Part shown: positions 1-52,172 of the stretch, one piece after another
Layout: every line of letters starts with the position of its first letter
How positions within the stretch are numbered: the first letter of the stretch is position 1
NCBI RefSeq assembly: GCF_032918005.1
Contig: NZ_CP136628.1
Location: 2,155,501 to 2,219,500, forward strand
Direction: 5' to 3'
DNA length: 64,000 bases
Source of the DNA: Bradyrhizobium sp. NDS-1
GTDB lineage: Bacteria > Pseudomonadota > Alphaproteobacteria > Rhizobiales > Xanthobacteraceae
Translations under genes and position numbers: made by a program
The notes under the pieces: model-generated
The model's database searches: none
The model's input: only the letters and a program-made list of their open reading frames with translations
Told to the model about the DNA's origin: nothing

Positions 1-537
1 CGCATCGAGCAGGGACGGGGTACCTTCGTCAAGGAGCGCGTTGTCCACTCCCGATTGGGTGCGCGGACCCGTCTGAGCACGACCGTGCGCGACATGCACA
101 GGATCAGCGAGCGCCGGTTCGTCGGCTCCGCGCGGGTTCGCGTCGACAGGGATCTTGCGCGCGACCTCCGTGTGCCACTGGCCCAGTTCGCACGCAGAGT
201 CGATACGCTGACGCTGATCGATGGTATTGCCGCCTCGATCTCGTCGAGCTATTTCCCACTGCCTCGATTCGAGGGAATCGAGGCGTTGATCGAACAGACG
301 GGCAGTCTCACGGAATCCTGGAACCACTTTGGCATCGTCGACTATCACCGATTTGAGACGCGGATTTCCGCGGGTTTATTGTCACACACCGATTCCCTTC
401 TGCTTGCGCTGTCGCGACGGCAACCGGTCATACTCATGACCAATATCAATGTGGCCGTTGACGGCGTTCCGATCGTGGTCACAAGAGGTCGAATGGCACC
501 GCAACACATGGAAGTTGTCATTCGATTCAGCGAGTGA
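1..537 (+). CDS. GntR-family transcriptional regulator with UTRA domain, PhnF-like (5' end outside window)
   Basis: The frame is open from the first base. It begins with the GRGTFV motif that closes a GntR winged-helix DNA-binding domain, so the start lies upstream. The rest is a UTRA effector-binding domain ending in DGVPIVVTRGRMAPQHMEVV and a stop at 535-537. That C-terminus resembles PhnF regulators of phosphonate genes, although UTRA domains also bind sugars and amino acids. A phosphonate-type gene set lies 7-14 kb downstream, but the porin and transport genes are closer, so its target is inferred. A decayed second copy of its 3' end follows. Confidence 0.8.
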   Translation, partial: RIEQGRGTFVKERVVHSRLGARTRLSTTVRDMHRISERRFVGSARVRVDRDLARDLRVPLAQFARRVDTLTLIDGIAASISSSYFPLPRFEGIEALIEQTGSLTESWNHFGIVDYHRFETRISAGLLSHTDSLLLALSRRQPVILMTNINVAVDGVPIVVTRGRMAPQHMEVVIRFSE

Positions 538-4208: not shown

Positions 4209-5210
4209 ATGAACCAGCCGTTTAAATTGGGCATTGATCTAGATAAGGATGGCCGTCAGGACGGCTATCTCAACGTGAGGACGACCAGCGAGCTATCGCC
4301 ATTCGGATGTTCTATGGTTCCTGTCACATCCATACGCAACGGCGACGGCCCCTGCGTTGTGGTCATCGGCGGCTGCCACGGAGACGAATATGAGGGGCAG
4401 CTAATCGCAAGGTCGCTGCTTGGCACCCTAGAAGTCGAGGATGTTCGCGGCCAGTTGATCGTACTTCCCGCCGCGAATGCCGAGGCCGTTCGAGCCGGAC
4501 GGCGCTTTTCCCCCCTTGACGACGGGAATCTGAACGCCGTTTTCCCCGGCAGGGAAAACGGCACGGCGACCGAGCGCATCGCGCACTTCATCGAGACGGT
4601 CCTGATGTCCCGCGCAGAACTTGTCGTGGACATCCATACAGGCGGTAAATCCATCGATTATTTCCCGTCGGCAATGCTTTCTGGAACCATCGATGGCGAC
4701 AGGCGACGCCGCGTCGTGGATCTCACCAAGGCACTCGGACTTCCGGTCGCGTTTTTCGTCGATGAGGAAGATTACTCCCATTCGAGCATTCTCGGAGCAT
4801 GCGACCGCGCCGGGGTCCTCAACATTTCTGCCGAAATCGGCGGAGGAGGATCAGTCAACCCGTCGACGCTGGAGCCGGCGCGCACCGGCGTCATGCGTCT
4901 GCTGCATCAGGCCGGCGTCCTTTGTGATGGCCCCTCGAACTCAGCTACCGAGGTCTCGTTCATGCGTCGCCTCCCGATCAGCTCAACCGTTCTCTCGCCA
5001 GCTAGCGGGCTGCTAGAGCCGCTCGTGCAACTAGGCGACTGGGTCACCAAAGACCAGTTGGCCGGCCTCCTGCATTCTATCGAAACACCGTGGTCCAGGC
5101 CGATCCCGGTTTACTTCGCCGAAACCGGGTTCGTACTCTGCCGTCGCCTGCAGGTTGCGACACAGATCGGCGATGGCCTCTTCAAGCTCGCGGTGCCGAC
5201 GGAGGCGTAA
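4209..5210 (+). CDS. succinylglutamate desuccinylase/aspartoacylase-family zinc hydrolase
   Basis: A deacylase-type zinc carboxypeptidase fold. The zinc-ligand motif GGCHGDEYEG (His and Glu ligands) is near residue 60, and the third ligand lies in VVDIHTGG near residue 140. This is the arrangement of AstE/AspA enzymes, which remove acyl groups from amino acids. I chose ATG 4209 because GGGAGGTG precedes it by about 10 bases; an upstream TTG at 4137 is less likely. An exported solute-binding protein follows at 5320, suggesting uptake and hydrolysis of an acylated compound. The substrate is not evident. A minus-strand fragment of a second family member lies at 6858-7064. Confidence 0.8.
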   Translation: MNQPFKLGIDLDKDGRQDGYLNVRTTSELSPFGCSMVPVTSIRNGDGPCVVVIGGCHGDEYEGQLIARSLLGTLEVEDVRGQLIVLPAANAEAVRAGRRFSPLDDGNLNAVFPGRENGTATERIAHFIETVLMSRAELVVDIHTGGKSIDYFPSAMLSGTIDGDRRRRVVDLTKALGLPVAFFVDEEDYSHSSILGACDRAGVLNISAEIGGGGSVNPSTLEPARTGVMRLLHQAGVLCDGPSNSATEVSFMRRLPISSTVLSPASGLLEPLVQLGDWVTKDQLAGLLHSIETPWSRPIPVYFAETGFVLCRRLQVATQIGDGLFKLAVPTEA

Positions 5211-5319: not shown

Positions 5320-6591
5320 ATGATGATCACCCGCAGAAGCCTCCTGGTGACCGGAGCCGTGTCGACAGCCGTATACGCCATGCCGGCCGTCATCAGAGCC
5401 GCCCAGAAAACGACCGTCACGATTTCGCAGGCCAATCCGACCTACCGAGCCCTTCTCTCCGAACTGACGACGCAATTCGAAACCGATAACCCCTCGAAGT
5501 CGATCAAATTCGTAGCTGACGGGGACAACTGGGGCCCGTTATTGAACAGCACGATCCGAGGTTCTCTTGTGAATTCCTTGCCGGACGGCTCCTGGCAAGC
5601 CCTGACCTATGCGCGGTTTCTCGCCAACAGAAAGATCGCGCAGCCTTTGAACAAGCTCTTCGGCGGCGACACTGGGAGTTTCGAAGTGCTGGGACTTTCG
5701 AAGACGATGATCGATGCGGCAAGCGTGAATGGCGAAGTCTTCAGCGTCCCGTTCGGGACGACCATTCCCGTCATCTACTGCAACATGGACCTACTTCGTA
5801 AGGCGGGTTACTCGAATCCGAAACCTCCAGCATCCTGGGACGAAATTCATGAAGTCGGTCTCAAGGTCAAGGGTCTGAACGAGACGGTCAGCGGCGGTTT
5901 CATCGAATACGAGGCCAGCAACGCCTGGATGTTCCAGACCCTAATATCGTCCTACGGCGGCGAGATGATGAACCCGGTACGGAACGCAATTGCCTTCGAC
6001 GGCTCGGCAGGTCTCCAGGCGCTTACCACTCTTGCGCGCTTTGGTGAAATCGTCAGGACAGATATGTCCGCGGAGCAGGCTCGCCAGGCGTTCAAGTCGG
6101 GTAGCACTGCCATGCATATTCAGTCCGCAAGCGGCATGACTTCGACGGCGAAGGCGGTGGCCGGGCATTTCGAACTGGCCATCGCCCAGATTCCTGTCGA
6201 GCCTCAGGGCCGACTGGCCGGAGCTGGTCATGGTTTCTTCATGTTCACCAAAGATCAGGCCAAGCAAGAGGTCATGTTCGATTTCATGAAGTTCGCCGCC
6301 AGCAAAAAGGGCCAGATGATACTGGCGAAGAATAGCGGGTACATGCCCATCAATCTTGTGGCTCTCAAGGACGCCGTATTCCTCGACGAGTATCTGAAGA
6401 TTAACCCGCTGCATCGGGACATCGTAGAACGGCTTGCGGTGACGGGGGACCAATTCTCATTCCCGAGCGACAACACGGCCAAGATCGTAGAGATGATTTC
6501 CGATCAAATGCGCAGTGTTTTGTTCCGGGGCAGCAAACCGGAGGAAGCACTACAGAACATGGCAAGCCAAACCAAGAAGCTCCTTGGATAA
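5320..6591 (+). CDS. ABC transporter extracellular solute-binding protein (family 1), Tat-exported
   Basis: A 423-residue periplasmic binding protein. The N-terminus has a twin-arginine signal (MMITRRSLLVTGAVSTAV) ending near VIRAAQ. The mature part has family 1 features: LLSELTTQFETDNPSKSIKF early on, then PFGTTIPVIYCNMDLLRKAG and PPASWDEIHEVG in the hinge region. Such proteins deliver sugars, glycerol phosphates or similar compounds to an inner-membrane permease. No permease or ATPase gene is present in the window, so it is either orphaned or uses a transporter elsewhere. It sits directly after the AstE-like gene and may serve the same substrate. Confidence 0.85.
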   Translation: MMITRRSLLVTGAVSTAVYAMPAVIRAAQKTTVTISQANPTYRALLSELTTQFETDNPSKSIKFVADGDNWGPLLNSTIRGSLVNSLPDGSWQALTYARFLANRKIAQPLNKLFGGDTGSFEVLGLSKTMIDAASVNGEVFSVPFGTTIPVIYCNMDLLRKAGYSNPKPPASWDEIHEVGLKVKGLNETVSGGFIEYEASNAWMFQTLISSYGGEMMNPVRNAIAFDGSAGLQALTTLARFGEIVRTDMSAEQARQAFKSGSTAMHIQSASGMTSTAKAVAGHFELAIAQIPVEPQGRLAGAGHGFFMFTKDQAKQEVMFDFMKFAASKKGQMILAKNSGYMPINLVALKDAVFLDEYLKINPLHRDIVERLAVTGDQFSFPSDNTAKIVEMISDQMRSVLFRGSKPEEALQNMASQTKKLLG

Positions 6592-7299: not shown

Positions 7300-8121
7300 T
7301 TATCGCTTTGTCGCTAATGTCACTTCGGTCACGTGAGGTTGACGCAGTAGACCTTCCTGCGAGTATCGCTCAAATAATTCGGTTAGCTTTTCGGCAACGG
7401 CTTGCTTGCCAATCGCCGAGGCAGATCGCTGCATGAGGCTGGACGAGAAACTCAGTGCAAGGAAGTGTGAAAGGTCCACATCAAAATCCCAATTCCAATG
7501 CCGAACGTTCACGTCTGCGAATCGGAGGTCAGCATCGAGCTCGCTGTAAAAGTCGATCGTCGAGTACGTTCCAGCCACGGTTGTGAAGGTGCCTCTGCGA
7601 TATTCTGGAATGCACTGTTCTACGAATTCGTGGTATTCGGCAAGCGCCGGGCTGTCCCAGTATCGGTGTCGATTGTGAACAAGCGCCAACATCCCATCTG
7701 GGAGCAATGTGCGCGCGACCTCGGTGTAGAACATCTGTCTATCAAACCGGTGGGCCGCTGTAGCTGCCGCGATGGCAGACACAGACTTGTCTGGAAATGG
7801 CAGCCGCTCAGCTGGTGCAATGCGGAACGTGATTTGCAGATCGTGGGGCGCTGACTTACCAGCAATCTGGATCATGTCTGCGTTCGGCTCAACTCCAATA
7901 ACGGAGAGCCTTCCCTGCGCTTCCGCGGCGAGCACCCTTGTGAAAATTCCTGTGCCGCTTCCCACGTCCACAATAGGGGCGTCGAAGCGTTTGTTGGTGA
8001 CGTGATCAATGATCACACTCGCAACTTCAGCGGGATAGCTGGGTCTATAAAGGTCATAGCTTTCGCCCTCGCCAGTGAACTCGGACCAGGGGGTCTCAAA
8101 ATTGGGAAATTTGGTAGTCAT
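7300..8121 (-). CDS. class I SAM-dependent methyltransferase, last gene of phosphonolipid-like operon
   Basis: A 273-residue methyltransferase of the Methyltransf_11 type. SAM-binding motif I is PIVDVGSGTGIFTRVL near residues 48-64, with the acidic residue of motif II in VIGVEPNADMI. The later PFPDKSVSAIAAATAAHRF segment is the usual fourth strand region. An AAAGG sequence precedes the ATG. It begins 26 bases after the PLP enzyme gene and is the distal gene of a five-gene minus-strand operon. By context it could methylate an amino head group or an intermediate, but the substrate is inferred only from position. Confidence 0.8.
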   Translation of the reverse strand: MTTKFPNFETPWSEFTGEGESYDLYRPSYPAEVASVIIDHVTNKRFDAPIVDVGSGTGIFTRVLAAEAQGRLSVIGVEPNADMIQIAGKSAPHDLQITFRIAPAERLPFPDKSVSAIAAATAAHRFDRQMFYTEVARTLLPDGMLALVHNRHRYWDSPALAEYHEFVEQCIPEYRRGTFTTVAGTYSTIDFYSELDADLRFADVNVRHWNWDFDVDLSHFLALSFSSSLMQRSASAIGKQAVAEKLTELFERYSQEGLLRQPHVTEVTLATKR

Positions 8122-8147
8122 CGTAACCTTTCAAAAATCTCCGAAAG

Positions 8148-9278
8148 CTATGCTCTGATAAGTTTGCCGATAATCGACAGGCCGTTGCGAAGTTGGTCGT
8201 GATCGGCGGCGACCCCAAGTCCGATCCGGACTCTTGTGCTGCCTAGAGACGAACCAACGGCGAAGGAATCTCCAGCCCCGACGACAACACCTCGTTGCTT
8301 CGAAGCTTCGACAAAATCATTGAGGCTTAGGTGGTCGGGCAGTTTGATCCAGAGGTGGTAACTTGCCGGATCGATATCGAATGGCATGCCGAACGCCTCT
8401 TCCGCGATATTCCGTCGGCTTTTCGTTTCGAGGCGCACTGAATTTATAATTTCAGATGCCACGCCAGTCGTTAGCCAATGGGTCGCGATCTCCGCGATGA
8501 GAGGCGCAACCATCCAATTTGTCGTTCTAACCCCAGGCCAAAATACCCTCTGCGTCATCGCTAAACTTGGACCCGCAACGTAGGCGACCCGAAGCTGACA
8601 AGCCAAGGATTTGCTGAGACCCGAGATGTACCAGCTGCGTTCGGGCGCATACGCAGAAAGGGGGGGAGGAGCGTTCTGCGCAAGGACGCCATAGATGTCG
8701 TCCTCAAAGATCGAAAGATTATGACGGCGCGCGATCTTCGCGATTTCTTGTCGCCTCGTCTCGGTCATAATCGCTGACGTGGGATTGTGAAGAGTAGGCA
8801 TGCAGTATAAGGCGCGCGCCTTCCCCTTGAACTTGTTGCACGCACGATCAAGGCTTTCAGGCTCAATCCCCTCCGCATCAATTGAGATGCCATACAAAAT
8901 TACTCGAAATAGATGCGACAGTGGTTTGATCGCAGGATAGGTAAGTGCCTCCGTAAGGAGCACGCCACCTGGTTTAACATAGTACGCAAGCAACATAGCG
9001 AGGATGCTCTGCGTGCCGTTAGCGAGCACTATTCCCTCCGGATCCGGCGTTCCTTCAAGTCGCCGTGCGAGCCAGTTGGCACCGGCTTCACGATCCTTCG
9101 CTGTGCCGTTGAAACGAGGAAATCGAATAGCCTCTGCAATATTCGTCTTCGCAAGATAGGAAAAGGACTCCTGGATTGCAGTCCCGACAAGCGGACTCGG
9201 AGGCGGAAAATTGCGTCCGAAGTCGATGAGCCGTGCGGAAGCCTGTGCAACTTCGCTAACGTTTGAAAGATCGTCCAT
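8148..9278 (-). CDS. PLP-dependent aminotransferase class I/II (MocR-type catalytic domain without HTH)
   Basis: A fold-type I PLP enzyme of 376 residues. It keeps LANGTQSILAMLLAYYVKPG (cofactor phosphate region), HNPTSAIMTETRRQEIA, IFEDDIYGVL (Asp that binds the pyridine nitrogen) and SGLSKSLACQLRVAYVAGP with the PLP lysine. The sequence resembles the C-terminal domain of MocR/PdxR regulators but has no winged-helix part. I chose the start at 9278 because AGGGAGGGAAAA directly precedes it. It is the fourth gene of the operon, 43 bases after the CDP-alcohol transferase. It may act on an amino- or oxo-phosphonate; this is inference. Confidence 0.85.
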   Translation of the reverse strand: MDDLSNVSEVAQASARLIDFGRNFPPPSPLVGTAIQESFSYLAKTNIAEAIRFPRFNGTAKDREAGANWLARRLEGTPDPEGIVLANGTQSILAMLLAYYVKPGGVLLTEALTYPAIKPLSHLFRVILYGISIDAEGIEPESLDRACNKFKGKARALYCMPTLHNPTSAIMTETRRQEIAKIARRHNLSIFEDDIYGVLAQNAPPPLSAYAPERSWYISGLSKSLACQLRVAYVAGPSLAMTQRVFWPGVRTTNWMVAPLIAEIATHWLTTGVASEIINSVRLETKSRRNIAEEAFGMPFDIDPASYHLWIKLPDHLSLNDFVEASKQRGVVVGAGDSFAVGSSLGSTRVRIGLGVAADHDQLRNGLSIIGKLIRA

Positions 9279-9321
9279 TTTTCCCTCCCTGGCTTGAAAG
9301 CCACAACGATGTTCGATCGGC

Positions 9322-9942
9322 TTAACGGGCAATACCTGCGACAGTTGCCAGCGCGATCGAGCCGGCGATTGCAAAGCCCGTCGCGATCGGCACCGCAATT
9401 CCACGAATGGCTGGGACGCGGATTGCTGTGTTCACGTGTAACAGCGCGAGTATGATGAATGCTGCCGCAACAATCGTCGGAAAAACATCGTCCGATAACA
9501 ACGGGCGAGCGAGCAGCAGGATAGTAAGGATTGGCGTATCGTACGAAACTGGAATGCCAATAAATCGCGCGTCAGATGTGAGTCCTACATTTTCGAAATA
9601 GCTGAGCCTGATCGCGCCCGCCAATACCAGCGCCAAGCTCGCGACGAGCGAAAGCATCGTGCCTTGACCAAGAAGGATAACGATCGTGGCCGGGAACACA
9701 ACGCCATGAATGAGATCGGCAAATCCATCGAAGCTTTTCCCGAACTCCGCCACACCTGGACGGCGAAGATGCCGCATCTTCCGGGCAACATGCCCATCCC
9801 AATGATCCAGAAACCAGGTCCAGAGCATTGCCGCAACGCCGAGCTCTATCTTGCCGTTTAAGGCCAGGAACAGCCCGATGACGGCAAACAGATAGGCGAG
9901 GGCGGTGATGGCATTTGCATAGTCACGCAGATACCCGATCAT
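9322..9942 (-). CDS. CDP-alcohol phosphatidyltransferase family membrane protein
   Basis: A 206-residue integral membrane enzyme. The catalytic signature is complete: WDGHVAR, then, after a spacer somewhat longer than usual, GKSFDGFAD. This supplies the aspartates that bind the metal and attack the CDP-linked substrate. Hydrophobic segments surround it (for example LAYLFAVIGLFLAL and VVFPATIVILLGQG). Family members make phospholipids such as phosphatidylserine or phosphatidylcholine from a CMP-activated partner. The gene overlaps the upstream cytidylyltransferase-like gene by four bases (ATGA). That pairing suggests the CMP-activated head group made by that enzyme is joined here to a lipid alcohol. 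Confidence 0.88.
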   Translation of the reverse strand: MIGYLRDYANAITALAYLFAVIGLFLALNGKIELGVAAMLWTWFLDHWDGHVARKMRHLRRPGVAEFGKSFDGFADLIHGVVFPATIVILLGQGTMLSLVASLALVLAGAIRLSYFENVGLTSDARFIGIPVSYDTPILTILLLARPLLSDDVFPTIVAAAFIILALLHVNTAIRVPAIRGIAVPIATGFAIAGSIALATVAGIAR

Positions 9943-10754
9943 CGCCTTGCTCCCGTCAGCGGGATGGAACTCGCCACGGAAACTGCCCGGCCCATCGACG
10001 GCGCGAAAATCTTCTCCGCTAGGCGCAGATCATCTTTGCTATCGATTTCGAACCAGCGGGTATCGCTGCAATCCGCCGCTGAAAGCTGCAGCTCTCGCTG
10101 CTCGACAAGCCGTGCGAGGACCTGCTCAACATAGGCCGTACGATGCCCGCTTTCCACAGCCTGGTGCAATGCTGGCACCACCTGTTCGCGCGAGGCGTCC
10201 GCGGAAAAGCGCGTCAGGTTGATGGTCTTGAAGAGACCCCTGGCCTGGGCCTCGACGGGCGTCTGGTTCATGACGAACGCGACGACAGAACCATCGTCAG
10301 CCAGCTCGACGGCGGAACCACTCATTGCTGCGTTGAACGCCGCCACAGCCGCCACGCTCTGCTTGGTAGATGAGACCGTTCGAAGTGTTCTTTCGAGGAC
10401 TTCGCGCTCAAAGAACACATCGCCTTCGAGAAAGACGGCGTCGCCGGCAAGCATTGTATTTCGCGCTAGCCATAAGGAATAGGCGCTGCCGGTCCGATCG
10501 AAGATGGGATTGTGGACATACTCGATGTCGACCTCCTCGAACCGATGGCCGCAGGACTGTTCGATGGCTTCTTCGCGATAACCCACGACGATGGTTGCTT
10601 CGCGAGCCCCGAGCTCAGACAACTGATGCAGCGCGTTGTGCAGCATCGGGGTTCCGTTCACCTCCACCAAAGGTTTCGGAACAAATTCCGTGTAGGGGCG
10701 CAGCCTGGAGCCCATTCCTGCGGCAAGGATCACCGCCCGTGTACCATTGAGCAT
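9939..10754 (-). CDS. NTP-transferase (CTP:phosphocholine/aminoalkylphosphonate cytidylyltransferase-like)
   Basis: A nucleotidyltransferase with the N-terminal signature AVILAAGMGSRLRPYTEFVP followed by KPLVEVNG, and a metal-binding EGDVFFERE segment. Its length (271 residues) matches LicC/PntC-type enzymes that activate phosphocholine or 2-aminoethylphosphonate with CTP. GGAAGGAC precedes ATG 10754, which favours this start over an in-frame ATG at 10775. It lies 24 bases after the aminotransferase and overlaps the phosphatidyltransferase gene. With PEP mutase nearby, the natural substrate could be an aminophosphonate. Sugar-nucleotide synthesis is the main alternative. Confidence 0.82.
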   Translation of the reverse strand: MLNGTRAVILAAGMGSRLRPYTEFVPKPLVEVNGTPMLHNALHQLSELGAREATIVVGYREEAIEQSCGHRFEEVDIEYVHNPIFDRTGSAYSLWLARNTMLAGDAVFLEGDVFFEREVLERTLRTVSSTKQSVAAVAAFNAAMSGSAVELADDGSVVAFVMNQTPVEAQARGLFKTINLTRFSADASREQVVPALHQAVESGHRTAYVEQVLARLVEQRELQLSAADCSDTRWFEIDSKDDLRLAEKIFAPSMGRAVSVASSIPLTGARR

Positions 10755-10778
10755 TTTGAAACGTCCTTCCGGCAAGCT

Positions 10779-11987
10779 TCAAGCCGTTGCTTGCCTGGTC
10801 TTCAGGCTGTTCAGGGTCTCGACGACGCGTTTCAGTCCCGTCTCCAGCAGGTCTGGTGGAGCACCGAAACAGAGACGCAGGCCATTCACGTCGCCAAAGG
10901 TACCGCCGGCAACGGATCCCACATCGGCTTCCTCCAGGAGCAATCGTGCAATGTCGTCGGTGGATCGAAGGTGGCCGCTGGCCGGCAAAGCTGAGACAAG
11001 CCTACTGAGATCGAGATAGAAGAAGAACGAGCCGTCGGCGCCCGGCAAGCTTACGTCCTGCAGACCAGAGAGGATGCGAAGGCCATTGTTGCGAGCGTCG
11101 GACAGACGCTCATGCATCTTTCGTTCAAAACTGCCGTCGCCAACTTGAAGGTGATGCAGGATGGCGTGCTGTGCGATTACATTGGCATTCGAGGTCGTAT
11201 GGCTTTGCAGCTTCTTGGCCGCGGAAACGATCTCCGGCGGAGCTGCGAAGTAACCCAGGCGCCAACCGGTGATCGCCAGCTCTTTTGAGAAGGCGTTGAC
11301 CAGGATAGTCCTTGAACGGACGCCGGGATGCGCCATGACGATCGACTCATGGCGCGAACCGGTGAATACGAAGCTGGAGTAGCTTTCGTCGGAAACGATC
11401 CAGAGCTGATAGTTGATCGCGAGATCGCCGATAGCTTGTAGAGTCGTTCGATCATAGACTGCGCCGGTCGGATTGTTCGGCGAGTTAATGATAACGGCTT
11501 TCGTGCGCGGGCTGACAGCGGCGCGAATTGCGACAATATCAGGAGTATATGTCGGGGGGCGAACGTCGACGAACACGGGCTTTGCGCCAGCGAGAAGAAC
11601 CTGGGACGGGAATGTCGGCCAGCAGGGGCGAATGATGATGACCTCATCTCCAGGATTGAACACCGCCAAGGCAGCGTCGAGCAGGCCCTGCTTTGCACCC
11701 GCAGTGATAGCGATGTTATCCGTATTCCAGTCGATGCCTGTTTCCGCAGACAGCTTTGCGGCAACGGCGCCGCGAAGCGGCGTCAGGCCGATGGAATCGG
11801 TATACCGGTTCGCCCCGGCATTGATGGCGGCAATCGCTCCTTCGCGCACGGATGATGGTGGCTCGATGATGACTTCGCCGTCGGCCAGATCGATGATCTG
11901 ACGGCCGGTCGCGGCAGCTATCTTAGCCGCCTCACGGGCGGCGGCAGTGCCCGAAACTGGCAGCAAAGACATCCGTTGCGCCAACAT
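10779..11987 (-). CDS. aminotransferase class I/II, first intact gene of phosphonolipid-like operon
   Basis: A 402-residue fold-type I aminotransferase. It shows ITAGAKQGLLDAALAVFNPG, SPNNPTGAVYDRTTL, VSDESYSSFVF (pyridine-ring Asp), NAFSKELAITGWRLGY (PLP lysine) and a C-terminal LRLCFG arginine. It most resembles aspartate/aromatic aminotransferases. AGGAGGAG five bases before ATG 11987 fixes the start; longer in-frame ATGs lack this. A degraded pepM 5' end on the same strand lies about 170 bases upstream. Transamination of phosphonopyruvate or phosphonoacetaldehyde is therefore a reasonable guess. No phosphonopyruvate decarboxylase is visible, which would favour phosphonoalanine as product. 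Confidence 0.85.
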   Translation of the reverse strand: MLAQRMSLLPVSGTAAAREAAKIAAATGRQIIDLADGEVIIEPPSSVREGAIAAINAGANRYTDSIGLTPLRGAVAAKLSAETGIDWNTDNIAITAGAKQGLLDAALAVFNPGDEVIIIRPCWPTFPSQVLLAGAKPVFVDVRPPTYTPDIVAIRAAVSPRTKAVIINSPNNPTGAVYDRTTLQAIGDLAINYQLWIVSDESYSSFVFTGSRHESIVMAHPGVRSRTILVNAFSKELAITGWRLGYFAAPPEIVSAAKKLQSHTTSNANVIAQHAILHHLQVGDGSFERKMHERLSDARNNGLRILSGLQDVSLPGADGSFFFYLDLSRLVSALPASGHLRSTDDIARLLLEEADVGSVAGGTFGDVNGLRLCFGAPPDLLETGLKRVVETLNSLKTRQATA

Positions 11988-12159
11988 CTGCGCTCCTCCT
12001 GCATCGATGGTCGAATTTGTTACGGTGATCGCAACCGCTTCGCCGCCGGTACGCGATCTGCCTCGGCGGATATCACTCTTCCGATCGACAACCGCGTCGT
12101 AGCCAAATGGGGCTTTAGAGTTCATTGAGACCGGCGACCTCTTCATCGCGCCAAGATGC

Positions 12160-12282
12160 CCTTCATGCACTTACAAGGAGGGGCGCGGTTGGAGCAGACC
12201 TGAGCACACAGTATTTTGGAACCGAGGAGCCAACGCATCGATCGCGGCCGTCGGCCAGAACAGATTGTGAGTGAGTCTGCAT
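12160..12282 (-). pseudogene. 5' stump of a second PEP mutase gene
   Basis: Read on the minus strand, the DNA from ATG 12282 matches the start of the intact pepM at 13489 over about 95 bases. Shared blocks include CACAATCTGT, CGATCGATGC and CTGCTCCAA. One base is lost about 60 bases in, shifting the frame, and similarity ends near 12160. The intact copy encodes SNLELSFLMEAHDG at this point. Before decay this copy would have been the first gene of the minus-strand operon. Confidence 0.7.
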
Positions 12283-12450
12283 GCTGAACTCCTTGCAGCT
12301 GATGTTTGCGTAGCCCGATGCTCATCCGACAAATAGTTTGCTCCCATCAGTAGATCAGATACTAACGTTGGTAGTTGACCCGAGCGCAAACATAAGTCGT
12401 TAGAATTGAGACGAGAGTTGCGGCTCTACGGTGCTCGGAGTCGAGCAGCT
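12283..12450. other. upstream region of the minus-strand operon
   Basis: This should hold the original promoter of the phosphonolipid-like operon, upstream of the pepM stump. I found no nod box, TGT-N10-ACA site or clear -24/-12 element in it. Confidence 0.3.
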
Positions 12451-13073
12451 CTAGACTTGCCCTTGGCGATGGCTTCTATCATTTGCAAACATGTCGATGC
12501 ACGAGGCGCTTGAAACATGCCGCAGTCTGATCGTGAGAGTGCCGCCCGCTCTACCGACGATGCTTATTGAGCTCAGAGTGGTGCGGATAAGCGATGCATC
12601 GACGTGAACGACCTCAGCGGTGGCGATCTTCGCCTTGAGACGCGCCCCGACCGTCCGCTTGAAGATCATGCGGTGGCGCTCTGCACCCCACCGCTCGCGG
12701 ATGCGTATCAAGCTGGAGTGGTCGGGAAGAGCGTCATGCGGTCCGTAGCCGACGAACCATCGGATGGCGACATTGACTTGAGCCTCCGATCGTCGAGGAT
12801 GCCCAGTGACAGCCCAGCGAGCATCAACCGTACAGCGACTTCCGGATAATCGCCCGGCCATCGCCGAAGAAATAGCAGTGAGACTTCGTGGTGTAGCCCA
12901 GAAGAATAGAGTACGCGATCAACCCGAACCGCCACTGGTCGTCGGGCATTTGCTGGCGAAGCGCGGAGGTGACGAACAGCTCTAGCTGATTCTGTTCCTT
13001 CCCAGCATATGGCGCCCCTCCGACCGCGACTCACAAGGAAAACGGAATCAGTTCGCGCGAACTCTTTCAACAA
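12451..13073 (-). pseudogene. decayed DDE transposase (IS1182/IS5-like)
   Basis: Two overlapping minus-strand frames together rebuild an IS1182/IS5-like transposase. The upstream frame holds the N-terminal region. The downstream frame holds NVAIRWFVGYGPHDALPDHS, IRIRERWGAERHRMIFKRTV and VVHVDASLIR. The frame changes near 12850 and the C-terminal catalytic part is missing or scrambled. It lies between the pepM stump and the intact pepM and may have caused their separation. Confidence 0.65.
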
Positions 13074-13084
13074 CCTCCACTCGG

Positions 13085-13385
13085 CAGCGCTGTCACGTGG
13101 CGTTCAGCACCTTGGCGGCGGCCTTATGCCCTCGTGGGCGTCCGAGATTCACTAGCTTGAGGGCCGCGCAGACCCCGCCTCGCGAGCCTGCGCAGGACGC
13201 CATCCGGGGATGGGCCGACATCCACGTCCCCGGACTTCGCGCCGGCCATCACTGTACGCCGATCGCGACGATCCCCGCGACCGAGACAATGCGCCCCTGC
13301 TGGCGCACCTTCACGTAGGTGGCGTCGATCCACAGAGAGAGCCCTCGCCCTCGACCGGACGGGCGCGGAACGCCCCGTCAACTAT
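13085..13385 (-). pseudogene. IS256 (Mutator-like) transposase fragment
   Basis: The minus strand encodes LWIDATYVKVRQQGRIVSVA followed by GIVAIGVQ and an in-frame stop. This is the conserved catalytic segment of IS256-family transposases. Upstream and downstream parts are absent, so the element is dead. It abuts the upstream region of the intact pepM. Confidence 0.7.
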
Positions 13386-13488
13386 CAAGCCTGCTAATTG
13401 ATCTAGATGTCAGAAAAGCCGAGTGATGCCGATTGAAGGTTGGGCTGCTCTGTCGGGTTGCTCAACCGTCGCTCCTGGGGTGTTCGGC

Positions 13489-14418
13489 ATGAAACGTCAA
13501 CCACAATCTGTACTCGCCAACGGTCCTGATCGATGCACCGCATCCTCGCCCGCAGAAATGCTGCGTGCACAGGTTTGCTCCAATCTTGAACTCTCCTTCC
13601 TCATGGAAGCGCATGACGGCCTCTCCGCTGCGATCGCCGAGCGGGCAGGGTTCAAAGGTCTCTGGGCGTCCGGTCTTTCAATTGCCTCCTCTCTTGGGTA
13701 TCGTGATGTCAACGAAGCGTCATGGTGCCAACTTGTCGATGCAGTCGAGCGGATCGTGGACTCGAGCAAACTGCCTGTTCTGGTTGACGGCGATGGCGGC
13801 TTCGGGAATTTCAACAATGCACGCCTCCTTGCCCGCAAGCTCCGTCAACGAGGCGCTGCCGGCGTTGCGCTGGAGGACAGCTGCTTTCCGAAGATGAACT
13901 CGCTCATTGGCGATCGTCACCCCCTCGCCGATATCCACGAATTCTCCGGCCGCCTGCGGGCAGTTAAGGATACAGTCGCGGAAGACTTGGTCCTCGTGGC
14001 CCGGATCGAGGCGTTGATCGCGGGGCATGGAATGGACGAAGCCATATTACGCGCTCACGCTTACGCAGACGCGGGTGCGGACGCGATCCTGATTCACTCG
14101 CGAAAGAGCACCGCGGACGAGGTTCTTTCCTTCACGCGCACCTGGCAAAGCCGATTGCCCGTCGTGATCGTGCCAACGACATACTATCGAACACCAGTCT
14201 CTGCGTATCGTAATGCCCGCATCTCAACAGTGATCTGGGCCAACCACTCAGTGCGAGCTGCAATAGCGGCAATGCAGCAGATCTGCCGTCGTATCATTGC
14301 CGAAGAAGGCGTTGCCGGTATCGAGCCCAATATTGCGACGCTCGATGAGGTCTTCGAACTGTTGAGGTATGACGAACTTGCCCGCGCGGAAGCGCGCTAT
14401 CTTCACCCTCTTGACTGA
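13489..14418 (+). CDS. pepM: phosphoenolpyruvate phosphomutase (PEP mutase)
   Basis: This isocitrate-lyase/PEP-mutase superfamily enzyme would convert phosphoenolpyruvate to phosphonopyruvate, the C-P bond-forming step of phosphonate biosynthesis. VLVDGDGGFGNFNNARLLAR (Asp100, Asp102) supplies metal and substrate ligands. The gating loop is EDSCFPKMNS at residues 129-138. The PEP-mutase signature is EDKxxxxxNS; here its Lys is Ser131, but the Lys135 and Asn137 equivalents needed for phosphoryl transfer are kept. Start 13489 is supported by homology to the stump at 12282. The 309-residue length is normal. It is transcribed away from the operon that once held its twin. A PEP-mutase-like lyase remains possible. 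Confidence 0.82.
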   Translation: MKRQPQSVLANGPDRCTASSPAEMLRAQVCSNLELSFLMEAHDGLSAAIAERAGFKGLWASGLSIASSLGYRDVNEASWCQLVDAVERIVDSSKLPVLVDGDGGFGNFNNARLLARKLRQRGAAGVALEDSCFPKMNSLIGDRHPLADIHEFSGRLRAVKDTVAEDLVLVARIEALIAGHGMDEAILRAHAYADAGADAILIHSRKSTADEVLSFTRTWQSRLPVVIVPTTYYRTPVSAYRNARISTVIWANHSVRAAIAAMQQICRRIIAEEGVAGIEPNIATLDEVFELLRYDELARAEARYLHPLD

Positions 14419-14726: not shown

Positions 14727-16358
14727 ATGTTAAGGCAAGGGACAGTTCTGCTCAACTCTTCGGGCACCGTCGCCAACGTGACAGATCTGCGTGGCGACGC
14801 CGTTCGCAACGTGTTCTCTTGCAGTATGCGCCGCTGGCGCAAGCAACTGACCCGGCTAGGGTTGATTGGGACCATAGTTGTCGCCTCAGCTGCGGCTGGC
14901 AGTGTCACCGATGCGAACGCGGGAGACGAGGCGAAGGCTGCCATGCAAACCCAAATCGGCTGGGTGCAGCCGCGGGTTCCCGCATGTGGCGAGACAACCC
15001 AAAAATTTGGCTCCAATGATCCGGACGATCCCGTCGATGACACCGTCAACAAGATGATCACCAAGTGGCTGGCGGCCGGCAACAAGGCCGCTTGGAAATC
15101 CAGCTTCGGTCTGGATAGGCGCTCTCTTGCCGACGCAGAGTCCGAAATCGACACCTCCGGTTACGGGAAGGATCTCTTCCTGACCGGCCCCGAAGCCAAG
15201 ACCCGCGGCATCGATCCGCATCGGAAGCAAATACTGCCGCACCGCGGTCTGTTCGATAATTCCAAGGGCATTCTCGAAAACACCATTTCAGCCGCCGACA
15301 ACGCGCTTAAGCACGGCTTCCACCGTGTCGAACTCGATCTTCGCGCGGATAAGAGCGGCCATGCCTGGATGATTCATGACAGTACACTCGGGCGGGTTAC
15401 CGGCGATCCGAACAATTGCCTGATTTCGGATGTCCCTACCGAGGAAATCAAGAACATGAACCTCTCGATATGGAATCCCATCAATAATGAACGACTTCCG
15501 GCGCTTGACCGCCACGGCAATCCGCAACAGATGGAAGACCTGCAGAAGATCATCGATTACGTTCGCGAGAAGAATAGAAGCGGCGATGAGTTCAACGTTA
15601 TCATCGACCCCAAGGACGAGGTATCGACGATCGCAGCAATCAAGGCGCTGTCGGCGCTTGAGAATGCTGACGTGCGGAGGCACCTCGGCATCAAGATCTA
15701 TTCGACCTATGTGCCGATTACCGACCGCGACGTTGCGCGCTGGGAAAATAAGACAACCAAAGTACTCGATGCGTTGGTGCAGGCCAATGTCCCGGTCCAG
15801 CTGAACAACAGACTCAATCTGATCCCGGTCCTCATCAAAGCGGAAAACGTCCAGTCGCCTCACATCGATAAAGACCAGGTCACCCAGGCCGGCGATTGGC
15901 TGACCTCCTTCGATAGGCTGGGCAATCTCACCATGGTGGAAATCTCCCGTTTCAAGGGAACCGACAACTTCGACAAGATGAATCAGGTGACCGCGAAATT
16001 CCAGGCAGCGGGCAAGAAGTTCGCCAGTACGCCTGTCACGGCGTCCTATATCTCGGAAGCGTTCTCCGTTAACGGGCAGAAGTTTTACTATAGTGCTCAG
16101 GGCGTGCCGATCACCCTGCCCGGCCGTCCCGACATGGAGTTCCGCGCCACTTTCGGCGCGCTTGAGCCCTATGCCGACGTGCTGCTGTCCGACAATGTTT
16201 ATTTGGAGACGCTCTATGCCACCGGCTATATCACTGAGGGCAGCCATGCGGATTATGCCTTTCCGATAGATGCCCACTACAACCCGGCATCCATTATCGC
16301 CGCACCGAAGGTTATCAGTGACAAGCCGAGCTGGATGAGCGATCCACGTCATCGGTGA
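14727..16358 (+). CDS. exported glycerophosphodiester phosphodiesterase family protein
   Basis: A GDPD-family TIM barrel. LPHRGLFDNSKGILENTISA carries the signature HRG...ENT residues. RVELDLRADKSGHAWMIHDS supplies the metal-binding E-x-D and the catalytic H-D, and VIIDPKDE follows. The family hydrolyses glycerophosphodiesters to glycerol-3-phosphate and an alcohol. A signal peptide (RRWRKQLTRLGLIGTIVVAS, cleavage after DANA) places it outside the cytoplasm. That signal fits a start at ATG 14826 better than at 14727. At over 500 residues it is longer than typical GDPDs. Lying behind pepM, it might recycle lipid head groups. This link is inference. Confidence 0.8.
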   Translation: MLRQGTVLLNSSGTVANVTDLRGDAVRNVFSCSMRRWRKQLTRLGLIGTIVVASAAAGSVTDANAGDEAKAAMQTQIGWVQPRVPACGETTQKFGSNDPDDPVDDTVNKMITKWLAAGNKAAWKSSFGLDRRSLADAESEIDTSGYGKDLFLTGPEAKTRGIDPHRKQILPHRGLFDNSKGILENTISAADNALKHGFHRVELDLRADKSGHAWMIHDSTLGRVTGDPNNCLISDVPTEEIKNMNLSIWNPINNERLPALDRHGNPQQMEDLQKIIDYVREKNRSGDEFNVIIDPKDEVSTIAAIKALSALENADVRRHLGIKIYSTYVPITDRDVARWENKTTKVLDALVQANVPVQLNNRLNLIPVLIKAENVQSPHIDKDQVTQAGDWLTSFDRLGNLTMVEISRFKGTDNFDKMNQVTAKFQAAGKKFASTPVTASYISEAFSVNGQKFYYSAQGVPITLPGRPDMEFRATFGALEPYADVLLSDNVYLETLYATGYITEGSHADYAFPIDAHYNPASIIAAPKVISDKPSWMSDPRHR

Positions 16359-20223: not shown

Positions 20224-21774
20224 ATGTCGTCGACCGCACTGTGCACCACCTCTCTTGCGTTGATCCTTTTTGCCAGCGGGATCATGGGGAGCGCGCAGGC
20301 AGACAATCCGCCGCCGCGCGCCAATGCCACGACGCCAGCCGGCCAGAACGGCGGCCCCGGCGAACGCGCCGGCCAAGCGCCGAGTACGCCGTCGGTCGCC
20401 GAGCAGCATCGCCTGCCCCCGGACTCCAGCACCAGGCAAACGCTTGATCTCCCTGGGCGGACGCTCTCTTTCATCGCGACGGCCGGCTCCATCCGCCTGT
20501 TCGAGGAGAAGGGCGAGCCGGAGGCCGACATCGTCTATACCTCCTATCAGCTTGACGGCACCGATCGCGGCACGCGCCCGGTAACGTTCTTCTTCAACGG
20601 AGGACCGGGCTCATCATCGGCCTGGCTGCAGCTCGGCAATGCCGGACCGTGGCGGCTGCCGATCAATGCAGACGAGGTCACGCCATCCACTTTTCCGGAG
20701 GTGAGGCCAAACGCGGAGACTTGGCTCGACTTCACCGATTTGGTGTTTATCGACCCCGTAGGCACAGGCTATAGCCGTTTCGTGGGAACCGGCGATGATG
20801 TGCGCAAGCGGCTCTTTTCAGTTGACGGCGACGTCAACGCGCTCGCGCTGGTGGTCCGTCGCTGGCTCGAAGAGCATGACCGGCTGTTGTCGCCGAAATA
20901 CATCGTGGGTGAAAGCTATGGGGGCATTCGCGGGCCAAAGGTTGTGCACCAGTTGCAGATGCGGCAGGGCATAGGAGTCAAGGGTCTGATAATGGTATCG
21001 CCACTCTTCGACTATGGCCAATTTGCCCGCACTGGCCTGCTGCAATACATCGCAACACTGCCGAGCTATGTCGCGACCCTGCGTGAAGCCGAGGGTCCGG
21101 TAAAGCGAGCCGATCTCGCCGACGTGGAAGCTTATGCACGCGGAGAGTTTCTGATCGACCTCATCAAAGGTCAGGCGGACAGGGAAGCGACCATGCGTCT
21201 GGCCGACAAGGTCGCGGCGCTGACCGGCATCGATCAGGCGGTGAGTCGCAGGCTCGCGGGCCGCTTCGACCTCGCCGAGTTTCGCCGTGAGTTCGATCGT
21301 AAGAACGGCATGTTAATCGGCAGATATGACGCCTCAGTGCGTGGCCTCGATCCGTTTCCGGACTCGGATTTCCATCTTTCCCGCGATCCGTCGAGCGACA
21401 CGCTGCTCGCACCTTTGACCAGCGCCACTGTCGATCTCCTTACGCGCAAGCTAAACTGGCGTCCGGACGGCTCCTATGAGCTAGTCAACCGCGCGGTCGG
21501 GCAGGCTTGGGATTACGGCCGCGGCCTTCCGGAGTCGCTGTCGGAGCTGCGCCAGATTCTCGCAACCGACCCGAAGATGAAATTGCTGGTCGGGCACGGC
21601 CTGTTTGACCTCGCCACGCCTTATCTCGGATCACAGATCGTGCTCGACCAATTGCCGCCATTTGCTTCAGCACCGCGCGTCAAACTCGTAGTCTACCCAG
21701 GCGGCCACATGTTCTATTCACGAGATGGCTCGCGCCAGGCTTTTCGTGCAGAGGCCGAAGCGATTATGAAGTAA
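20224..21774 (+). CDS. exported peptidase S10 family serine carboxypeptidase
   Basis: An alpha/beta-hydrolase of peptidase family S10. A signal peptide (LALILFASGIMGSAQA/D) sends it to the periplasm. FFFNGGPGSSSAW forms the oxyanion hole, and Ser231 in VGESYGG is the nucleophile. The acidic residue lies in GHGLFDLATPYLG and the histidine in YPGGHMFYSR near the C-terminus. AGGAGA upstream supports start 20224 over an in-frame ATG at 20197. A low-complexity Pro/Ala/Gly stretch follows the signal. It would trim residues from peptide C-termini. The radical SAM genes are 320 bases downstream, beyond a hairpin, so a shared role is possible but unproven. Confidence 0.88.
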   Translation: MSSTALCTTSLALILFASGIMGSAQADNPPPRANATTPAGQNGGPGERAGQAPSTPSVAEQHRLPPDSSTRQTLDLPGRTLSFIATAGSIRLFEEKGEPEADIVYTSYQLDGTDRGTRPVTFFFNGGPGSSSAWLQLGNAGPWRLPINADEVTPSTFPEVRPNAETWLDFTDLVFIDPVGTGYSRFVGTGDDVRKRLFSVDGDVNALALVVRRWLEEHDRLLSPKYIVGESYGGIRGPKVVHQLQMRQGIGVKGLIMVSPLFDYGQFARTGLLQYIATLPSYVATLREAEGPVKRADLADVEAYARGEFLIDLIKGQADREATMRLADKVAALTGIDQAVSRRLAGRFDLAEFRREFDRKNGMLIGRYDASVRGLDPFPDSDFHLSRDPSSDTLLAPLTSATVDLLTRKLNWRPDGSYELVNRAVGQAWDYGRGLPESLSELRQILATDPKMKLLVGHGLFDLATPYLGSQIVLDQLPPFASAPRVKLVVYPGGHMFYSRDGSRQAFRAEAEAIMK

Positions 21775-22095: not shown

Positions 22096-23742
22096 ATGGG
22101 AAGCACCTCTGGAGTGTCGTTCACAGCTAGTCGTAACTGTACACGGAATACCGAGAGGTTCGCGTTGCGCGAGGCAGCCTTACCCTTACGCGGTATTCCG
22201 CCGATAGTTCTGGCTACGCCAGCGCCGATCACGCACCGTACCGCCGAGGAAAATTTGGGGCTCGGTTACCTGGCGAGTATTCTCAGAAGCAAGGGGGCGA
22301 ATGTCCAAATCATCGACGGTTGGCTGGGCGGTCTGACGAGTGACGAGATCGTAGATTCGATAGCCCGGCTGCCGGTTCCGCTGTGGATCGGATTTTCCTG
22401 CTACCGATCCAATATGGCTCGGGCAATCGAAGTCATGCAGCTGCTTCATCAGCGCGGTCTACAAACCCCGACGATCGCCGGCGGCTACGGGCCGACCTTT
22501 CACCCGGATGAGTTCCTGAACGCTGGGTTCGACGTCGTGGTCCTCGGCGAGGCCGAAGAAACTGTCTGCGAGTTGAGCGAGCACTTTGCATTCGGTAAAC
22601 TGGACCTCTCCGACATTTCAGGTATCCGCTACAAACACGACGGCAAGATCGTTCGTAGCGGGCGCAGGCCAGCGGTCGCGAACCTTGACGCCATACCTTT
22701 TCCTAGCCGCGACACGATCCGCGCCTCACTTGAGCGGCGGAGCGCTGTGCCCGTGCTTTCGTCACGCGGCTGCGCGGCCCACTGCACGTTCTGCTCGATC
22801 GTTGCCTTTGCGAAAGTATCGGATGGTTCGCATTGGAGGCAGCGTTCGATCGAAAACTTCGTCGACGAGCTGGAGCAGGTTAGCCGCCTCGGGGCGACGT
22901 GTTTCAAAGTCATCGACGACAGCCTTATTGAGCCGCCTCGAGACGAGCTCTGGTGCCGTGAACTTGCCGACGATATTCAATCGCGAGGCCTGCGCGTGCG
23001 CTTGCGAGGTTCGATCAGAGCGGATCGCGTGACCGACGAGGCAATTAGGCAGCTCAAGCGAGCCGGCTTCTTCGCGTTTTCGTGCGGTATTGAGAATTAT
23101 TCGGAATCCGCATTGAAGAGGATGGCGAAGAGTGCAAGCGTTGATCAAAACCTGCAAGCCCTTGATGTCTTCAAGAAACACGCCATCTACGTGCAAGCCG
23201 GGCACATTCTCTTTGATCACGGCACGACGATGGAAGAGTTGCGGGAAAATCACCGTCGCATGTCGGACTACGTTTGGACGATCAGCAAGGGAATTTTCTC
23301 CGAGATGTATGCGGCCGAAGGAACGCCGTTCGCGAGGCTGCTGCGAAAACGAAACCTGATCGACGCCAACGTCGATGGGACTGGCAACCGAAACTATCGT
23401 CTGGCCGACGAAGACGTGGTTCACGCCTATACGGGCCTAAAGCGCTGGCACAAGAGCCATCTTCGCCTTTACGACAAAGCGATCGACGCCATCAGCGCGC
23501 CAAAGGCACTCGAGGACGAGGAACTGGTCGAATTCCACGCGCTTGCGACCGAACTGCGGCGGCACGACCTCGCCTACCACTTGCCTGAGCTCGGCCGGAT
23601 GGGCTTTGGTAGCTCCGCGCTGGACGCGACCGAAGGACTTCCGCGCTCGCGGCTTCGAGCGAAGTCCTCTTTTTTTTGCGCATCGTCGAGTACGACTGGA
23701 ACGCTGCACGCCCTCCGTCAAGAACTACTCGACCCGAACTGA
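22096..23742 (+). CDS. B12-binding-domain radical SAM protein
   Basis: A 548-residue enzyme with an N-terminal cobalamin-binding-type domain (residues about 30-180: LGLGYLASILRSKGANVQII through FDVVVLGEAEETV). The radical SAM domain follows, with Cys226, Cys230 and Cys233 in SSRGCAAHCTFCSIV. Such enzymes typically methylate unactivated carbon or phosphorus, or rearrange rings. The family is broad and no substrate can be read from sequence. AGGAG six bases before ATG 22096 supports this start. The C-terminal 40 residues are Ser/Thr-rich with a TTTTTTTTG run near 23670. It is the first gene of a pair with the RiPP-type radical SAM enzyme. Confidence 0.82.
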   Translation: MGSTSGVSFTASRNCTRNTERFALREAALPLRGIPPIVLATPAPITHRTAEENLGLGYLASILRSKGANVQIIDGWLGGLTSDEIVDSIARLPVPLWIGFSCYRSNMARAIEVMQLLHQRGLQTPTIAGGYGPTFHPDEFLNAGFDVVVLGEAEETVCELSEHFAFGKLDLSDISGIRYKHDGKIVRSGRRPAVANLDAIPFPSRDTIRASLERRSAVPVLSSRGCAAHCTFCSIVAFAKVSDGSHWRQRSIENFVDELEQVSRLGATCFKVIDDSLIEPPRDELWCRELADDIQSRGLRVRLRGSIRADRVTDEAIRQLKRAGFFAFSCGIENYSESALKRMAKSASVDQNLQALDVFKKHAIYVQAGHILFDHGTTMEELRENHRRMSDYVWTISKGIFSEMYAAEGTPFARLLRKRNLIDANVDGTGNRNYRLADEDVVHAYTGLKRWHKSHLRLYDKAIDAISAPKALEDEELVEFHALATELRRHDLAYHLPELGRMGFGSSALDATEGLPRSRLRAKSSFFCASSSTTGTLHALRQELLDPN

Positions 23743-23878
23743 TCCTTGCGGCGTGGCACCGCTTAATGTCGAGAGCGAAGCGGTGTGTCGACTCATTCAC
23801 CGCTCGGCTCTAGCACCCTCCGCCGGACTAGCGCGTTCATGCTTTCCAGTCTCCATGCAACGAACGTGACACGGAAAC

Positions 23879-35337: not shown

Positions 35338-35354
35338 TGGCACGTGGCTTGCTG
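35338..35354 (+). promoter_or_regulatory. RpoN -24/-12 promoter upstream of hupG
   Basis: TGGCACGTGGCTTGCTG is a near-perfect RpoN element (GG-N10-GC with TGGCAC and TTGCT). It lies 44 bases before the hupG ATG, in the only sizeable gap in the hup cluster. No perfect TGT-N10-ACA site was found upstream. Confidence 0.7.
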
Positions 35355-51107: not shown

Positions 51108-51124
51108 TGGCACGCCAGTTGCTA
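51108..51124 (+). promoter_or_regulatory. RpoN -24/-12 promoter of nifH
   Basis: TGGCACGCCAGTTGCTA is a full-consensus RpoN element. It lies about 157 bases before the nifH ATG, giving a long 5' leader, as in other Bradyrhizobium nifH genes. Confidence 0.9.

Positions 51125-51155: not shown

Positions 51156-52172
<1,017 letters not shown>

Follow-up and report, generated by a model that had tools for sequence, protein, structure and literature searches.

A putative production and recovery cassette for a phosphonoalanine conjugate in the symbiosis region of Bradyrhizobium sp. NDS-1

Genes at the locus

We analysed a 64,000-nucleotide stretch of Bradyrhizobium sp. NDS-1 (contig NZ_CP136628.1, positions 2,155,501-2,219,500 of a 7.65 Mb genome), called the window here, for a gene cluster that is predicted to build a phosphonate, a compound with a carbon-phosphorus (C-P) bond, and to attach it to a second molecule. 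Five genes follow one another on the minus strand. In transcription order they are PLP1 (10779..12170), an aspartate-aminotransferase-like protein (Aminotran_1_2, 175 bits) and proposed phosphonopyruvate transaminase in a PnaA-like role; CTase (9939..10775), a LicC/PntC-like nucleotidyltransferase (NTP_transf_3, 56 bits) and proposed CTP:phosphonoalanine cytidylyltransferase; CDPOH (9322..9942), a cytidine diphosphate (CDP)-alcohol transferase of the phosphatidylserine synthase (PSS) type, with the proposed task of coupling CMP-phosphonoalanine and a hydroxy acceptor; PLP2 (8148..9278, with an ATG start chosen over a longer GTG start), a fold-type-I pyridoxal phosphate (PLP) enzyme; and MT (7300..8121), a putative tailoring S-adenosylmethionine methyltransferase (Methyltransf_11, 62 bits). 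The gene for a phosphoenolpyruvate (PEP) mutase, pepM (13423..14418; the gene caller would start it at 13558), lies divergently on the plus strand, 1.25 kb away.

All six genes are open and intact, and the gaps within the operon are 3, -4, 43 and 26 bases. The original prediction of a tight minus-strand operon with a PEP mutase next to it thus holds, as do the enzyme classes it named: signature motifs are present in PLP1, PLP2, MT, CTase, CDPOH and PepM. The spacer between the divergent units (12171..13422) has no intact gene and holds a transposase-domain remnant, in that the open reading frame (ORF) at 12451-12861 (minus strand) matches PF05598 at 30.3 bits (cut-off 23.1) and the ORF at 12708-13073 matches no family. 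The nearest named contigs by PLP1 are from Bradyrhizobium canariense BTA-1 (98%) and B. rifense (97%).

Among the titles listed, our literature search recognised no publication on this cluster. One paper reports pepM, ppd and pdh in a free-living Bradyrhizobium (PMC10708946), a different route.

From PEP to an activated phosphonoalanine

Family models place PepM among the true PEP mutases: it scores 333.8 bits on TIGR02320 (cut-off 319.55) and only 203.2 bits on the sister phosphonopyruvate hydrolase model TIGR02321 (cut-off 374.4). The genome has six PEP_mutase-superfamily matches, and PepM alone exceeds the TIGR02320 cut-off. Its best solved relative is a PEP mutase (316 bits, residues 50-327 aligned), which we take to be the Mytilus enzyme.

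Membership was decided by full-length model score and not by the loop motif EDKxxxxxNS, which PepM does not match. Its loop is EDSCFPKMNS, with Ser in place of the motif Lys; the second Lys and the NS are retained. Counting redundant contigs, 30 Bradyrhizobium PepM ORFs carry EDSCFPKxNS; EDK loops occur in six from Mesorhizobium, Rhizobium, Sinorhizobium and Agrobacterium, and EDN in two broken copies (L051, L062; L codes denote fetched stretches and G codes genomes). The motif was not found in L047, L082 and short PepM fragments. A published inventory of phosphonate pathways retained only PF13714 proteins with EDKxxxxxNS (PMC6697681), and such a filter would drop the whole Bradyrhizobium PepM clade, so that a motif-based phosphonate inventory would overlook it.

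PLP1 matches aspartate aminotransferase models and solved aspartate aminotransferases best. PnaA, an enzyme of that superfamily, converts phosphonopyruvate to L-phosphonoalanine (PMC11867202). In Mesorhizobium waimense (draft genome) PepM and PLP1 are fused in one ORF of 725 aa; no second PepM-aminotransferase fusion was seen among the best 120 of 7556 matches, nearly all of which are PepM-NTP-transferase fusions.

The original prediction had proposed phosphonoalanine if there is no decarboxylase. Genome-wide, no match to the phosphonopyruvate decarboxylase model TIGR03297 reaches the cut-off (best single piece 140 against 312.5 bits), with the caveat that sub-cut-off matches also arise in 13 of 14 control genomes. 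This negative, the PnaA precedent and the linked breakdown sets described below make phosphonoalanine the likely pathway phosphonate, rather than 2-aminoethylphosphonate (AEP).

The best solved relative of CTase is LicC (1jyk), and Tde-PntC (6pd1) is matched too. A LicC/PntC-like gene beside pepM is what a Pnt-type pathway would have, and we propose that CTase activates phosphonoalanine with CTP. With PepM, the aspartate-aminotransferase-like PLP1 and CTase linked, an aminophosphonate pathway with nucleotide activation, as envisaged earlier, is supported. The route probably runs from PEP through phosphonopyruvate, phosphonoalanine and CMP-phosphonoalanine to a phosphonodiester.

Conservation of the cluster

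CDPOH was present in 27 of 149 relatives, 25 of them of the same genus. We mapped 29 CDPOH loci, dropping matches with less than 25% query coverage, overlapping weaker matches and those with E > 1e-15. These loci are related and have unequal flanks, so counts over them are neither independent nor random; G257 was included because of its PphA match, and G067, which has a formyltransferase, AsnB, an Opp set and pepM, falls outside the 29 because the filters dropped its CDPOH row.

A lack of conserved linkage had been named beforehand as grounds for giving up the pathway. In 25 of the 29 loci, pepM (at least 50% identity, partial copies included) is no more than 10 kb from CDPOH, the others being G027, where it is about 15 kb off, G049:C1052, G060 and G088. 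The order pepM-aminotransferase-CTase-CDPOH in one direction is found on rhizobial plasmids, in Sinorhizobium meliloti AK57 pSymA, Mesorhizobium AR10, Rhizobium leguminosarum Vaf10 and Rhizobium sp. CCGE531, the last with an IS5 element ahead of CDPOH. The set has two extra genes on pMLa of MAFF 303099 and an extra oxidoreductase on Agrobacterium pAt2. S. meliloti M270 has a full, divergent CDPOH in addition to the in-line one. In M. metallidurans (L075) pepM, PLP1, CTase, CDPOH, PLP2, MT and DoeB all run in one direction. By these sequence comparisons the linkage of pepM with the operon is more than chance adjacency.

The transferase and its acceptor

CDPOH carries the CDP-alcohol phosphotransferase catalytic motif together with a PSS fold, by sequence and by predicted fold. 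A single-sequence search found no solved relatives; a profile search matched PSS. Structures were compared by VIA-align 2 and sequences by HMMER profile alignment. Three of the four serine-coordinating residues of MjPSS are kept (Asp62, Asp66 and Phe105 as D72, D76 and F116). The fourth, Ser63, corresponds to Gly73 (Gly in 148/154) and MjPSS Arg104 to Tyr115 (143/154), and the HMMER alignment shows five residues inserted behind the AR motif. The alcohol site of PSS binds serine (PMC8633023). The predicted fold suggests that CDPOH fits a serine-like acceptor more than diacylglycerol.

This bears on the membrane phosphonolipid that had originally been proposed as the end product. On that account CDPOH would move phosphonoalanine from CMP to a lipid such as diacylglycerol, the head group would be modified by PLP2 and MT, and the importers described below would reclaim deacylated head groups. 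Against it stands that the closest match of CDPOH by both fold and sequence is PSS, with serine in the alcohol site.

Tailoring genes and block exchange

PLP2 is related to the MocR/EhuR regulators, without their DNA-binding domain, and has a putative role in acceptor or amino-group tailoring. In relatives it occurs fused to GNAT, and in L069 MT is fused to a DoeB-like protein.

Compared in 300-base windows, BTA-1 (L068), CTAW71 (L083) and aSej3 (L070) match the window at 90-100% identity between CTase and pepM. In all three, identity falls to 62-89%, or the alignment ends, near 9.9 kb, where CTase meets CDPOH. L069 retains the back half at 83-96% identity, and L087 retains CDPOH and PLP2 (87-95%) and not MT. 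The transferase-and-tailoring half has thus been exchanged in three of five close relatives, and the activating half has stayed the same. Such a pattern would be expected if the compound is under diversifying selection.

Sister clusters carry AsnB, a formyltransferase, a dipeptidase and Opp importers. A further cluster type places an FAD oxidoreductase, a class V aminotransferase and a TauD dioxygenase or amidohydrolase around PLP1-CDPOH-PLP2-MT (L037/L072 of B. hipponense, L076, L087; partly L038/L078). On pAt2 (L067, L128) the set continues with ParB-N, ornithine-cyclodeaminase, alanine-racemase and cysteine-synthase-like genes and then an ABC importer; these genes may form a diaminopropionate-type acceptor pathway.

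Uptake and breakdown genes beside the clusters of relatives

In B. hipponense (L035, L070) a solute-binding protein, two permeases and an ATPase follow within 7.5 kb of CDPOH, and after them come an aminotransferase and a PepM-like protein. This PepM-like protein has the loop EDKTFPKVTS and scores 360 bits on TIGR02321 against 276 on the PEP mutase model; we call such proteins PphA-like. Among solved structures this one is closest to phosphonopyruvate hydrolase 2dua, at 334.7 bits, with the next at 264.2. Sets of phosphonopyruvate hydrolase, transaminase, LysR and transporter are found in L035, L127 and other contigs, and the make-up of LysR, PphA and PalB matches the Variovorax pal cluster (PMC10574752). 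The CCGE531 plasmid combines producer genes with a phosphodiesterase (PF01663), an M19 dipeptidase, an Opp-type importer, LysR, an aminotransferase and a hydrolase. At 16.8-19.6 kb of L112 (S. meliloti AK57 pSymA) the phosphonopyruvate-hydrolase-like gene next to the producer genes is split into two matches, as is its LysR gene.

TIGR02321 was matched at 1e-60 or better in 24 of 117 genus genomes, one of them above the curated cut-off. Among 16 genomes with a PphA-like protein above 340 bits that were also scored for CDPOH, 14 hold CDPOH. The two genes are on one contig, 7-53 kb apart, in ten of the 14, and on separate draft contigs in G028, G039, G049 and G079. A Fisher value of 5e-8 for the pairing was not relied on because it presumes that all 89 same-genus genomes were in both searches. 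Over the 29 loci a PphA-like gene lies within 60 kb of CDPOH in 12, and the candidate phosphodiesterase PDE1 (at least 50% identity) within 35 kb in ten. PDE1 is single-copy in seven of 12 genomes and is 5.8-15.0 kb from CDPOH in all seven; five of these genomes had been selected for an earlier sighting of PDE1, and the sample had CDPOH-positive genomes only.

Of the 29 loci, 16 have an importer no further than 35 kb from CDPOH, 12 of the CUT1 type and four of the Opp type. UgpB-like solute-binding proteins are common, and we dropped them as stand-alone evidence, relying instead on a permease control. The importer permease at 77% identity or more occurs in 11 copies in ten of 20 genomes, and ten of the 11 copies are within 35 kb of CDPOH (the eleventh is on another contig of B. 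hipponense). None was found in four CDPOH-negative genomes, nor in six CDPOH-positive genomes lacking the CUT1 set, and weaker homologues (46-58%) are located elsewhere. Linked uptake and catabolism genes, the arrangement expected of an opine- or rhizopine-like system, are present, though not universal.

Importer type follows tailoring type. Loci of the DoeB/MT/PLP2 type that have an importer have CUT1 in nine of nine cases, and AT15-type loci have Opp in three of three. Two CUT1 loci (G056, G071:C8) had no tailoring type assigned, and the formyltransferase/AsnB-type locus of G027 has a more distant Opp set.

Returning to the phosphonolipid, a covarying importer and tailoring set does not favour it, and the AsnB, formyltransferase, dipeptidase and Opp importers of sister clusters suit a soluble amide better. 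CDPOH is also patchy in relatives. We further counted toward a soluble product a major facilitator superfamily transporter within or beside two plasmid clusters. A soluble product suits better overall, given the PSS-like transferase, the covarying tailoring and importers, and the uptake and breakdown genes beside many clusters; the lipid end product, which we now consider unlikely, gives way to it.

Recovery genes of the window genome

The window genome has its own candidate recovery genes on the left. In L063, the plus strand encodes a solute-binding protein, cutA, cutP1, cutP2 and PhnF. The three cut genes (genome 2151988-2154937) share 76, 85 and 82% identity with their B. hipponense counterparts, and the final importer gene ends 7.9 kb from MT. 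PhnF begins 149 bases left of the window and extends to position 537 (1..537, plus strand; TIGR02325, 159.3 bits against a cut-off of 156.8). The minus strand of L063 encodes PhnM, PhnG, PhnH, PhnI, PhnJ, PhnK, PhnL and a TIGR03223 protein, so that the importer, PhnF and PhnM-GHIJKL lie together at 2.143-2.156 Mb. The genome has a second PhnJ at 7.208 Mb, so that the C-P lyase of the symbiosis region is an additional one. A similar grouping is found in S. meliloti M270, with producer genes, importer, PF01663 protein, PhnF and phnGHIJKML.

These neighbours, together with the highly unfavourable forward reaction of PEP mutase (PMC11867202), would also suit a locus devoted wholly to phosphonate use, in which PepM and PLP1 run catabolically from phosphonoalanine to PEP. 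We rate this as very improbable. It gives no place to a nucleotidyltransferase and a CDP-alcohol transferase kept in the same operon and the same order across rhizobia, and genomes with the LysR-PphA-PalB set retain PepM too.

Between these genes and the operon lie, both on the plus strand, a DoeB-like AstE/AspA-family deacylase (4209..5210, alternative ORF start 4137), whose homologues stand within the synthesis operon of relatives, and a UgpB-like solute-binding protein (5320..6591; SBP_bac_8, 83 bits). The latter is 49-52% identical to solute-binding proteins of several paired clusters and 28-34% to others; that of L063 is only 29% identical to it.

A gene adjoining pepM on the other side (14727-16358, plus strand) was considered as the pathway phosphodiesterase and not used as evidence. 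Its best family is the AvrBs2 effector (NF041304, 98 bits, far under the cut-off of 1000), the GDPD match (PF03009) is weak at 54 bits, and members of its cluster turned up solely in the window and in five stretches from the closest relatives, with the gene called in several pieces in L068. Further right, at 22165-26013, are two radical-SAM proteins, of which the first has a B12-binding domain, adjoining a serine carboxypeptidase-like gene at 20224-21774.

Symbiosis setting and regulation

The originally proposed setting on a symbiosis island is supported: nifH is in the window at 51294-52112, 39 kb right of the operon, and nodC is 336 kb further on. A perfect sigma-54 element stands at 51108, about 190 bases upstream of nifH, with others at 35338 (plus) and 19070 (minus).

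Specificity to bacteroids, also part of the original prediction, gains no support from promoters. There is no NifA upstream activator sequence (UAS) between 6500 and 14800 of the window and no sigma-54 element with at most one mismatch upstream of pepM or PLP1. A one-mismatch match at 9412 is inside a gene. A two-mismatch match lies at 12218 (minus), 48 bases upstream of PLP1, and the window has 82 matches with up to two mismatches. No nod-box-like match at one mismatch was found in the window. In relatives, a one-mismatch sigma-54 match is upstream of pepM in L075 and UAS-like pairs in L036, L041 and L079.

With redundant contigs counted, 17 of 56 mapped stretches have a LuxR-type autoinducer-binding regulator near pepM, among them many Bradyrhizobium clusters (L032, L033, L042, L043, L047, L048, L054, L055, L062 and others). 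We saw no LuxI paired with it, although in draft genomes a pair could be missed; LuxI-family genes occur in 11 of 12 genomes, those listed being on other contigs or more than 90 kb off (G002, G019, G056). LuxR control would fit an antibiotic-type product, a phosphonoalanine phosphonodiester for competition whose hydrolases serve self-protection and whose catabolic neighbours are unrelated. Peptides of phosphonoalanine are antibacterial (PMC11867202), and variable tailoring and block exchange point the same way. Such a product needs neither a dedicated importer nor a degradation route, let alone an importer type matched to the tailoring type, and we regard it as improbable, more so than the lipid.

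Interpretation

We read the locus as the production half of a production and recovery cassette for a soluble phosphonoalanine conjugate, with an opine- or rhizopine-like logic, and put the probability of this at roughly 0.58. The product would resemble a private nutrient or signal more than a membrane lipid. The original prediction is supported in its aminophosphonate pathway, its phosphonoalanine and its pepM linkage, and not supported in its membrane phosphonolipid or its bacteroid specificity. Gene content, linkage, fusions, predicted fold and the covariation of importer with tailoring are taken from sequence; from them we infer all reactions, the acceptor, export and the ecological role.

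PepM would isomerise PEP to phosphonopyruvate, and PLP1 would transaminate this to phosphonoalanine, pulling the unfavourable PepM step. CTase would form CMP-phosphonoalanine, and CDPOH would release CMP and place phosphonoalanine in a P-O ester on a small hydroxy acceptor, perhaps serine-like. PLP2 and MT, joined in relatives by GNAT and DoeB-like proteins, would then tailor the conjugate into strain-specific versions. Once exported, the conjugate would be reclaimed through the dedicated ABC importer and, in many relatives, opened by a phosphodiesterase. Breakdown would be by the pal-type pair of PalB transaminase and PalA phosphonopyruvate hydrolase, or in the window genome by the second C-P lyase.

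Several observations weigh against this reading. MjPSS itself produces a lipid, and PepM has Ser where the motif has Lys. Three relatives (L036, L037, L039) have no intact CTase within the operon, and the in-line CDPOH of S. meliloti M270 is annotated at just 288 bases. The PphA-like proteins are below the TIGR02321 cut-off (360 and 359 against 374.4). Of 25 same-genus CDPOH genomes, 14 have a PphA-like protein above 340 bits, G066 has a partial one and ten have none listed. The importer was not found in 13 of 29 loci, most of which are on short contigs or were partly fetched, and none was found in G010, G019 and G066 with about 30 kb fetched per side. In G002 a CUT1 importer lies 13.5 kb from a formyltransferase/AsnB-type cluster, which shares it with a cluster of the PLP2 type. 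PhnJ was found within 35 kb of CDPOH in just one of 29 loci, plus S. meliloti M270. Genome searches found neither a PphA-like gene nor PDE1 in the window genome, so recovery there would rest on C-P lyase. The missing NifA UAS belongs here too.

A larger proposition is that rhizobia and some agrobacteria make a family of C-P-bonded opines, namely phosphonoalanine phosphonodiesters, from genes on symbiosis islands and conjugative plasmids. An exchangeable tailoring block would set the strain-specific versions, kin with the matching importer and phosphonate breakdown genes would recover them, and they would serve as a private phosphorus, nitrogen and carbon currency around root nodules. This is tentative, and we would sooner expect it to fail than to hold. 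Should it hold, phosphonates would be private goods that rhizobia both produce and take back, tying together symbiosis, phosphorus economy and strain competition, and the cluster would become a second, chemically distinct test case for the rhizopine question of why strains carry matched make-and-use genes.

Comparison with known systems

Opine and rhizopine systems link producer genes to matching uptake and breakdown genes. The likeness here is one of gene arrangement: producer genes and matching uptake and breakdown genes are linked on symbiosis regions or conjugative plasmids. The known rhizopines are inosamines, and we know of no rhizopine with a C-P bond.

The Pnt pathways with PntC (PMC6697681) share a PEP mutase beside a LicC-like CTase and the logic of activation with CMP. 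The characterised ones act on AEP, whereas here there is no decarboxylase above the cut-off, the transaminase is aspartate-aminotransferase-like and the transferase is PSS-like. The Bradyrhizobium PepM also lacks the EDK motif by which that inventory was filtered. The PnaA/PnaD phosphonoalamide pathway of Streptomyces (PMC11867202) resembles the locus in leading by PepM and an aspartate-aminotransferase-superfamily transaminase to phosphonoalanine. It goes on to peptides by ATP-grasp ligases, where the present cluster has a nucleotidyltransferase and a CDP-alcohol transferase instead.

The pal cluster of Variovorax sp. Pal2 (PMC10574752) groups LysR, PalB, PalA and transporters, as do the sets beside many rhizobial clusters. 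In that review it is a catabolic cluster, while the rhizobial sets stand beside a biosynthetic cluster and come with two ABC importer types and a phosphodiesterase. Finally, CDPOH and MjPSS (PMC8633023) have the same fold and catalytic aspartates and equivalents of Arg101 and Phe105. CDPOH differs in its proposed donor, CMP-phosphonoalanine, and PSS-like transfer from that donor is predicted to be a new enzyme activity.

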